The position numbers were made by a program, and so were the translations under genes. Under the pieces are notes generated by a model. It did not search any database. It saw nothing but the letters and a program-made list of their open reading frames with translations, and was not told the DNA's origin. A stretch of DNA of 64,000 nt from the NCBI GenBank assembly GCA_003132405.1, contig PKXQ01000156.1, forward strand, positions 1 to 64,000. Direction: 5' to 3'. Positions within the stretch are counted from its first letter, which is position 1; every line of letters begins with the position of its first letter. Origin of the DNA: Acidobacteriaceae bacterium. Lineage in GTDB: Bacteria > Acidobacteriota > Terriglobia > Terriglobales > Acidobacteriaceae. This document shows positions 16,641-18,860 of this stretch, piece by piece.

Positions 16641-16764
16641 CCAAACTCTGTCAAGCCCCCGTTTCGCCGGTTTCGTCGCTAAGCCTATGCATCCGAAGGG
16701 AAGATAAAGTTCAATAACTTGTCGGGCCAGTCGGTCGAACTTGATATAATTAACTTATAGATAG

Positions 16765-16795
16765 AAAAAGGTGCGGATCACTTCCGCACCTTTTT
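16765..16795. terminator. strong bidirectional rho-independent terminator
   Basis: Perfect 13-base arms AAAAAGGTGCGGA and TCCGCACCTTTTT with a 5-base loop, giving a U-run on both strands. It lies downstream of the frameshifted exported protein and about 80 bases before the insertion sequence. Confidence 0.88.
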
Positions 16796-16870
16796 CATTT
16801 GGCCTGTGCTGTTAACCACGAAGCCCTAACTCGTGAAATCGGCCCAGGCTAAGTCCTTATTCCGCAATAT

Positions 16871-16878
16871 TTTGCATA
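16871..16878. repeat. 8-bp target site duplication, left copy
   Basis: TTTGCATA directly precedes the left inverted repeat; the identical TTTGCATA follows the right one at 18853-18860. Eight bases is the usual duplication length for IS1595-family elements. Confidence 0.9.
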
Positions 16879-16927
16879 GGTAATTATCCCTTGAAATCAC
16901 GTATTGGATGGCATATCATTCCGGCTC

Positions 16928-17677
16928 ATGGCCGGAAAATTCGAGAGTGCTTACCAAAGAATCGGTTGGGCAACCGAGCAAATGGGTGAATTGAAACGCA
17001 GATCGCACGTTTACTTTAATCCTGATACGCACCCCAGATTCACGGAGACTGATCCGAAAACCTCTCACACGCTCGATAAAATCAAGCTCAAGCCCATCCC
17101 TAATCCCATCATTCGAAATGTTGTTCAAATTATTGAGGGACTTCGATCTGCTTTGGATCACGCGGCGAATGCCACGGTGCCTAGAGGTAAGAAGGCCTAT
17201 TTCCCTTTTGGTGATACCCGGCGAGACATGAAGGCCTCCTTCGGCAGCGACCGCTATAAACATCTCCCGAAAGACATCAGAACGCTCTTTGTGAAGTTCA
17301 AGCCTTACAAGGCTGGGAACTCTACCCTTTGGGCACTCAACAAAATGTGCAACATGACAAAGCACAGGAAAATGCTGGCTCCTTCGATTTCCATCAAGGA
17401 CACCGTGTTCGAAGATCGCTGGGGCGTCGGGGCTTACGATGCGCTGCCCTTTGCGCCTAGCTGGGATCGCCGAAAAAACGAAATCATAGTTTCCCGATCC
17501 CTCGGCAAGGGAACAGTTCACCACGATGTTGAGTTTTCCATCGGTATACAGTTTGGGAAAGTCCCAGTGCTTAGCGGACGCCCAGTCCCTTCCAATTTGG
17601 GCAAGATGGCTGGCATAGTTTTGAGCATCGTTAGAGCTACGGAAGCGGAGGCGCGAAGACTTGGAATCATCAAATAG
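16928..17677 (+). CDS. passenger gene of the IS1595 element, function unknown
   Basis: A 249-residue protein carried entirely within the insertion sequence, starting 25 bases inside the left repeat (ATG 16928; TTG 16904 is in frame). No known catalytic motif is recognised. Notable segments are FESAYQRIGWATEQMGELKR, IEGLRSALDHAANAT, and NKMCNMTKHRKMLAP near residue 140, rich in His/Asn and possibly a site. No signal peptide or membrane segment. IS1595 elements are known to carry assorted passengers; this one matches none I can name. Codon use is less GC-biased than the neighbours, consistent with transfer. Confidence 0.75.
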   Translation: MAGKFESAYQRIGWATEQMGELKRRSHVYFNPDTHPRFTETDPKTSHTLDKIKLKPIPNPIIRNVVQIIEGLRSALDHAANATVPRGKKAYFPFGDTRRDMKASFGSDRYKHLPKDIRTLFVKFKPYKAGNSTLWALNKMCNMTKHRKMLAPSISIKDTVFEDRWGVGAYDALPFAPSWDRRKNEIIVSRSLGKGTVHHDVEFSIGIQFGKVPVLSGRPVPSNLGKMAGIVLSIVRATEAEARRLGIIK

Positions 17678-17692
17678 CTTCCAATACACACT

Positions 17693-17734
17693 CCCGTCTT
17701 TCCGTCATGCTAAAATGCATGACGTACAGACGGG
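17693..17734. terminator. hairpin between convergent passenger and transposase genes
   Basis: Outer arms CCCGTCT/AGACGGG and inner arms CGTCATGC/GCATGACG enclose loop TAAAAT, with a 3-base bulge on each side. No U-run follows, so the terminator role is inferred from its place between two convergent genes. Confidence 0.5.
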
Positions 17735-17813
17735 CATACGGTGATGAGCCGCCAAGCACAGACCGATCAACCCGGTGCGCGAAAGATTTTGAAGCCGTCC
17801 GCAGAAGTTGCGG

Positions 17814-18794
17814 CTAAAATGGCTCCAGTATCAAGGGCTTCCTTCCACGATCTACTGCAACGGGCGGCAAATCCGCCCTCTCGACAACGCGCTTCAAAAA
17901 AGCGTTGAAGATTAGATTCCCCTGGTCCCTTCGATTGTACCGAAACGAATATTCATCCAAGTAGGTTTGCAAATACTTCCGGCTCACGGAATGGTAGACT
18001 CCGCCGATCCCGCGCTTAATCAGCGACCAAAACCCTTCGATGGTCTGAGTGTGGACATCGCCCATGACATAGATTTTCTGTGCGTGCTTGATCCGCCGAT
18101 GATCGTAACCATTTTTCGGTGTAGCGAGCCGGTCATAGGTTGAATACTCATCGCTGTATACGATACTGTTTGGCAAAATCTTTTCTTCGATGATCGGGAA
18201 AAGCGTAGCGGCCTTGGCATCTGGCGTTACATAAGCCAGCACGCGGCCTTTCCCCCCGCGCTCGACCATGCCGAACACTGGAGTCTTTTCATCGTTATCG
18301 CGTCCGCGCATTCCGCGAGAGCCGTGCTTGTTCTTGCGCTTTCCGCCTACGTAAGTTTCGTCGATCTCCACCGCCGATCCCTCCAGTTGCATGTCAGTTT
18401 CGGACAGCAACGAGCGAATCTGGCGGAACATCCGCCAAGCGGTTTTGTAGGTCACTCCGGTTTCACGCTGAATCTGTTTCGCGGAGATGCCGCAACGAGT
18501 TGAAGCCATCAAATACATGGCGTAGTACCAGAGGCGAAGCGAAGTGCTGGAGTGCTCGAAGATCGTCCCGGCCATCGGGGAAATCTGGGTTCCGCAGTGG
18601 TCGCACGAATACACCGGACGCCCATGGATGCGGTAGTGCTTGCGCTCTGTTTTGCACTTTTCACAGTGGACGATTCCGCCGGGGAACCGCTGCTCTTTTA
18701 GGTGCTCTAGGCAAGCGGCATCATCGGGAAACTGGCGGTTGAAGTCTGTGATCGTGTAGCGTAGATGCTTCGGAATTGTCTGGTAGCGGTTCAT
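17814..18794 (-). CDS. IS1595-family transposase
   Basis: A 326-residue DDE-type transposase, apparently complete. The N-terminal zinc ribbon has CEKCKTERKHY and CDHCGTQ. The catalytic domain starts at EIDETYVGGKR (first Asp), then YSDEYSTYD (second Asp) and VHTQTIEGFWSLIKRG, where IS1595 proteins carry the last catalytic residues. ATG 18794 is chosen because AGGTGG lies 5 bases upstream; a GTG three codons earlier is possible. Confidence 0.95.
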   Translation of the reverse strand: MNRYQTIPKHLRYTITDFNRQFPDDAACLEHLKEQRFPGGIVHCEKCKTERKHYRIHGRPVYSCDHCGTQISPMAGTIFEHSSTSLRLWYYAMYLMASTRCGISAKQIQRETGVTYKTAWRMFRQIRSLLSETDMQLEGSAVEIDETYVGGKRKNKHGSRGMRGRDNDEKTPVFGMVERGGKGRVLAYVTPDAKAATLFPIIEEKILPNSIVYSDEYSTYDRLATPKNGYDHRRIKHAQKIYVMGDVHTQTIEGFWSLIKRGIGGVYHSVSRKYLQTYLDEYSFRYNRRDQGNLIFNAFLKRVVERADLPPVAVDRGRKPLILEPF

Positions 18795-18860
18795 GGCTTC
18801 CACCTACAGGCAGTATGCCATTTGTTCTACGTGATGTCAAGGGATAATTACCTTTGCATA

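Follow-up and report, generated by a model that had tools for sequence, protein, structure and literature searches.

An IS1595-family insertion sequence with an exchangeable passenger gene of predicted HEPN-like fold

A complete IS1595-family insertion sequence lies in the window, which is the whole 64,000-nucleotide stretch of soil Acidobacteriaceae DNA analysed here, and its 1974 bp (16879-18852) enclose two genes. The left terminal inverted repeat, GGTAATTATCCCTTGAAATCACGTA (16879..16903, + strand), and the right terminal inverted repeat, GGTAATTATCCCTTGACATCACGTA (18828..18852, - strand, read 18852-18828), are each 25 bp long and are identical at 24 of 25 positions. Both ends open with GGTAATTATCCC and are flanked by identical copies of the target-site duplication (TSD) TTTGCATA, at 16871..16878 on the left and 18853..18860 on the right; a terminal GG and an 8-bp TSD are among the features by which the IS1595 family is recognised. 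A search for matching ends directly flanked by an 8-bp duplication returned exactly 16879-18852. The gene on the - strand (17814..18803) encodes a transposase of 329 aa, with a GTG start at 18803 and a possible ATG start at 18794, and matches the Pfam families PF12762 (DDE_Tnp_IS1595, E=4.9e-45) and PF12760 (the N-terminal zinc ribbon of most IS1595 groups, E=1.7e-10) and the NCBIfam family IS1595 (NF033547, E=6.5e-64). The first-pass annotation, made from the sequence alone, had described a complete IS1595 element with 25-base inverted repeats, an identical 8-base target duplication and an intact transposase, and the repeats, the TSD and both the zinc-ribbon and DDE domains were confirmed. 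The element is probably autonomous. The 5.7-Mb host assembly contains one copy of the whole element, one copy of the passenger gene and 11 IS1595 transposase matches. L056 (C61) and L057 (C18), also IS1595 elements of the host genome, have as passengers small, unrelated proteins with an apparent membrane anchor. The upstream gene probably ends in a terminator at 16764-16796, close to the left side of the element, where a T-run follows a perfect inverted repeat of 14 bp.

The second gene, the passenger (16928..17677, + strand), encodes 249 aa. Its ATG lies 49 nt from the outer end of the element and 25 nt past the inner edge of the repeat, and so a start within 25 bases of the end, as previously described, holds when measured from the inner edge and fails when measured from the outer end. 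Translation from a TTG in the same frame, 25 nt inside the outer end, would yield a protein of 257 aa; family members align at the ATG, and residues are numbered from this codon (16928). Searches of Pfam, NCBIfam, PHROGs, PADLOC and the PDB sequences, the last with both the protein and a profile, returned no match to the passenger. A scan of 34 family members against Pfam, PHROG and PADLOC likewise gave no convincing match, with a best PADLOC E no lower than 0.018, and no described defence protein was matched. As a sole query in related genomes, the passenger retrieved 24 relatives; the alignment of these 24 sequences was too divergent for scanning, and closer sub-alignments were used as profiles. 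By profile search, 77 of the 298 genomes sampled from the host's order (about a quarter) have a family member, and further members lie on genome and viral contigs (Pseudomonadota (Rivibacter), 'Bacterium MnTg02' and proviral contigs). Plasmid and phage collections contain few relatives (Mesorhizobium, Arthrobacter and Clavibacter plasmids and two Gordonia phages) and offered no helpful named annotation. The original view of a passenger without a known family is thus correct for the libraries searched, but the protein belongs to a large, unnamed and widespread family. All members share the signature LRSALD(H) ... FP ... PY.GG...LW.L..L.N.DKHR, by which the family is referred to here as LRSALD/DKHR. 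Across 96 sequences H146 is invariant, and D77 (99%), K145 (97%) and R73 (94%) are nearly so; the segment NKMCNMTKHRK, which had looked conserved at first reading, is indeed so at H146 (96/96) and K145.

The first-pass annotation had proposed a structure prediction for the passenger, and this allows a HEPN-like fold with a beta insert to be put forward. The AlphaFold2 model of the window passenger, built from 34 alignment rows, has a pLDDT of 89.0 and a pTM of 0.84, and that of the distant member L070 (~25% identical) has a pLDDT of 88.5. Helices are predicted at residues 6-29, 59-81, 98-105, 115-123, 132-143 and 220-244, with the beta insert at about 150-209. A Foldseek search of the PDB with both models returned no match below E 0.001. 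Upon realignment with VIA-align 2, HEPN proteins ranked top for both models, with Z scores for 4nqf of 9.6 and 10.7, although a Z near 10 in helical bundles can reflect a common arrangement. Other top entries were 1ufb, 2hsb and the HepT/HEPN-MNT toxins 6m6w, 7bxo, 5yep and 8xeh, and the agreement of two independent models together with the concentration of HEPN entries argues that the likeness is real. Both models show a helical core arranged much like that of the metal-independent HEPN RNases and of HEPN toxins (HepT 7bxo, 5yep and 6m6w; 2hsb). As in these proteins, helix 2 of the predicted structure has an acidic and a basic residue separated by one turn, and helix 4 ends in a conserved H. 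In contrast to these proteins, the passenger has a beta-sheet insert before the last helix and a KH signature, and lacks an MNT partner, PF05168 profile similarity and a conserved Rx4-6H motif. Comparison by hhalign of the family profile with 22 PF05168 HEPN members from the host's phylum gave a probability of 0.1-0.2%, PF05168 being the one HEPN family compared by profile; the HepT (PF01934) proteins collected and aligned from related genomes were too few for a profile. Rx4-6H is the primary determinant of the HEPN active site, and an acidic residue that is part of an Ex3[KR] motif often lies upstream of it; HEPN families that have lost it exist and are often non-catalytic binding domains (PMC3710099). 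Rx4H (73-78) is present in 45 of the 90 passenger sequences with R73, and Rx4-6H before H146 in 15 of 96. Because Rx4H occurs in only half of these members, the passenger is labelled HEPN-like on the basis of its predicted fold with a beta insert, and not a proven HEPN member.

Each end of the element contains a candidate sigma70-like promoter by consensus match, and the region has no other promoter-like sequence. The putative passenger promoter (16891..16919, + strand) consists of a -35 TTGAAA inside the repeat (16891-16896), a 17-nt spacer and a -10 TATCAT (16914-16919), and the passenger ATG begins 8 nt after the latter. The putative transposase promoter (18812..18840, - strand) consists of a -35 TTGACA, also inside the repeat, a 17-nt spacer and a -10 CATACT. 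All 37 element ends at which a transposase or passenger gene starts have a TTGAC-like hexamer at position 13 or 14 of the repeat. A -10 at the fixed 17-nt spacing with at least four TATAAT positions is found in 18 of 29 transposase ends and 4 of 8 passenger ends, compared with 22% of shuffled interiors that reach four matches even with free spacing. The first in-frame ATG of 18 of the 29 transposases lies 6-9 nt past the -10, and the first start codon of six of the eight passengers lies 6-8 nt past it. These consensus matches predict near-leaderless mRNAs from both ends.

Between the two genes lies a hairpin, or dyad (17693..17734, no strand assigned), with a folding energy of -25.9 kcal/mol and a z of -6.9. 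The junctions of related elements differ in sequence and are mostly foldable, with z from -1.0 to -6.5 and a core resembling TGCTAnAAT, possibly an extended -10. Rfam gave nothing at gathering strength, with sub-threshold matches only. A small ORF of 54 aa, MSRQAQTDQPGARKILKPSAEVAAKMAP... (17744..17908, + strand), overlaps the 3' end of the transposase gene in antisense. It is kept alongside the transposase in related IS1595 elements and has weak matches in L205, L212 and L214, the passengers of which differ. A role for this ORF as a passenger-specific antitoxin was rejected as first choice because it tracks the transposase block rather than the passenger, and no cognate antitoxin is visible. 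Another subgroup (L035, L036, L045 and L136) possesses a different small ORF (F..AL..VL.VSK.DL..R) at the same place.

The association of the family with IS1595 was assessed at 65 family loci from the host's bacterial family, found by protein search irrespective of IS context. An IS1595 transposase lies within 3.5 kb at 23 of these loci, and 20 of the 65 are inside an element with matching ends and a TSD, which answers the first-pass proposal to look for the passenger in other IS1595 copies. The chance expectation, based on how many transposases each genome contains (253 in total over 60 genomes and 286 Mb), is 0.49 loci, corresponding to an approximately 47-fold excess and a Poisson-binomial tail of ~8e-34 with loci treated as independent. 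About 60% of the loci show neither a nearby IS1595 transposase nor any other recognisable sign of IS1595, and the family is therefore not IS-specific; a strictly IS-specific passenger was rejected by the widespread family, the IS-free loci and the family tree. Wide occurrence of the passenger at chromosomal loci with no IS ends had been named beforehand as evidence against the first-pass reading. Half of this was found, because the family is widespread and most of its loci outside elements lack IS1595 ends, yet the association with IS1595 far exceeds chance. Some loci (e.g. L088, L137, L040, L146, L043 and L039) possess a single strong inward-facing IS1595-type end ~20-110 bp from the passenger and are perhaps relics.

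Whether the passenger always keeps to one transposase group had been asked at the outset, and it does not. Over 27 pairs, similarity between passengers does not correlate with similarity between transposases (Mantel r about 0.04, p 0.18), and co-evolution of the two was rejected on this ground. The transposases of the window and L160 are 90% identical and their passengers 15% identical, and L036 and L045, from one genome, have transposases that are 96% identical and passengers from different sub-clades. The reverse is seen for L042 and L148, with passengers that are 51% identical and transposases in different groups. At the DNA level the window element resembles L160 or L142 in essentially two places only, the left repeat and the segment from 17686, 9 nt past the passenger stop, to the right end. 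When 97 passengers are placed on a maximum-likelihood tree, IS1595 association is scattered: its label switches 24 times, a number no lower than that obtained by shuffling, and well-supported branches force at least 15 gains or losses of IS1595 context. Together, the decoupling, the confined DNA homology and the changes on the tree indicate that the passenger slot has been refilled repeatedly. The contents of the slot were surveyed in a small sample of 22 elements chosen by similarity to the window transposase. The slot holds the LRSALD/DKHR family in the window, L154, L203 and L204 (the ends of L204 were not found), a PIN-domain gene in L205, DUF3800 in L210, a ClpP-like gene in L219 and matches to PDC-S45, a phage-defence candidate, in L217, L218 and L219; some slots hold genes without a family. 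L214 looks similar to the DUF3800 gene of L210 but falls below a Pfam match, and L220 resembles the PDC-S45-carrying elements by eye. The nuclease- and protease-like genes among these suggest a toxin or defence role for the cargo.

The reading preferred here, to which we assign a probability of about one half, is that the element is a minimal IS1595 with a single exchangeable cargo gene, and that the passenger is a divergent HEPN-fold, toxin- or defence-like effector. The right repeat, transposase, small ORF and junction hairpin form a constant block, and the gene flanked by the left repeat and that hairpin sits in a variable slot, refilled perhaps by recombination between elements or by capture. 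Each end would double as an inward promoter giving a leaderless or nearly leaderless mRNA, so that a gene landing beside an end would be expressed like the transposase. The structure models suggest that the conserved R73, D77, K145 and H146 form an active or nucleic-acid-binding site, in which R73/D77 and K145/H146 may come together as one. With less confidence, the passenger may be an RNA-cleaving, growth-arrest or anti-invader effector, and the cargo may be retained for the protection it gives the host cell or for the penalty it places on losing the element. A bolder form of this reading, which is possible but doubtful, is that IS1595 elements of Acidobacteria and other hosts are minimal vehicles for one swappable toxin or defence gene, set at a fixed distance from an end-borne promoter and transcribed as a leaderless mRNA, and that one of the recurrent cargoes represents a new class of RNases with a HEPN fold in which an R-D-KH site replaces Rx4-6H.

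A rather unlikely alternative is that the passenger has a HEPN fold but no catalytic activity, serving in binding or regulation, or else is an ordinary gene that benefits the host, and that the element carries it neutrally or for some unrelated function in metabolism or stress. The non-conserved Rx4-6H, the frequent non-catalytic binding role of HEPN domains without the motif (PMC3710099) and the location of most family members outside IS1595 are consistent with such a protein, whereas the near-invariant charged residues R, D, K and H suggest catalysis or the binding of a ligand, and other slot genes are nuclease- or protease-like. An accessory or regulatory factor of transposition, acting in target choice, repression or immunity, would fit a gene inside complete elements, near an end and under a promoter-like sequence borne on the inverted repeat. 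Such a role is improbable, however, for a protein that is decoupled from the transposase lineage and has many members far from any IS1595, and related transposases occur without the family or with unrelated genes. Slightly less probable again is a toxin-antitoxin pair formed by the passenger and the 54-aa ORF, for which the adjacency of the two, the conserved junction dyad with its TGCTAnAAT-like core and the HEPN and PIN toxin pairs known in Tn3 transposons (PMC7157771) can be cited, but the ORF belongs to the constant block and has its weak matches beside other passengers. That an ordinary chromosomal gene merely neighbours an IS between accidental repeats would accord with the IS-free family members and nothing more, and is very improbable given that near-perfect 25-bp repeats and an exact 8-bp TSD enclose both genes and that this arrangement recurs at 20 sampled loci with differing TSDs.

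The preferred reading, of a minimal element with exchangeable cargo, has partial precedents. IS1595 members with passenger genes have been described as 'transporter IS' (Siguier et al. 2009, Res Microbiol, as cited in PMC3129680). The window element shares with these the transposase domains, the terminal GG, the 8-bp TSD and an extra gene unrelated to transposition, but differs in its cargo family, in repeated exchange and in the placement of the cargo under the promoter-like sequence of the end opposite the transposase. No report of this cargo family, of exchange or of end-borne promoter placement in IS1595 was found in the open literature searched, Siguier et al. (2009) aside. As far as that literature shows, the protein family and its predicted fold, its association with IS1595, the decoupling of passenger and transposase, and the end-borne promoter geometry are new. 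In Tn3 transposons, toxin genes, including HEPN and PIN, have been recruited repeatedly and exchanged at one position near the transposon promoters (PMC7157771). Cargo of putative toxin type, several recruitments, exchange between elements and a fixed position near promoter-like sequences are likewise seen here, but Tn3 elements are larger and carry toxin-antitoxin pairs and resolvases, whereas the present element is a 2-kb IS with one such gene and no visible antitoxin. The results link a very simple kind of transposon to a cargo slot repeatedly refilled with nuclease- or protease-like genes. Repeatedly refilled cargo is known for the larger Tn3 and Tn7 elements. A common protein family that had not been described now has a structural hypothesis with four testable residues, and should the cargo prove to be a toxin or an effector of defence, the ends of IS1595 would provide a simple handle in searching for new effectors.

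A transposase-less arrangement is seen at L032 (3135-5315), where IS1595-type ends and a TSD bound a DUF3800 gene and a gene of the passenger family, the two separated by an internal repeat that resembles an end. Mobile insertion cassettes (IS231-MIC231) are mentioned in PMC3129680, and L032 is similarly bounded by ends and a TSD without a transposase; it differs in its IS1595-type ends and in the extra internal repeat, which suggests that L032 is a fused pair of elements. L032, L035, L036 and L045, which belong to one subgroup, are inserted in a similar target sequence (about TGGAATCA...GTTAGCGG), which suggests either a preferred target or a dispersed repeat into which they have inserted.
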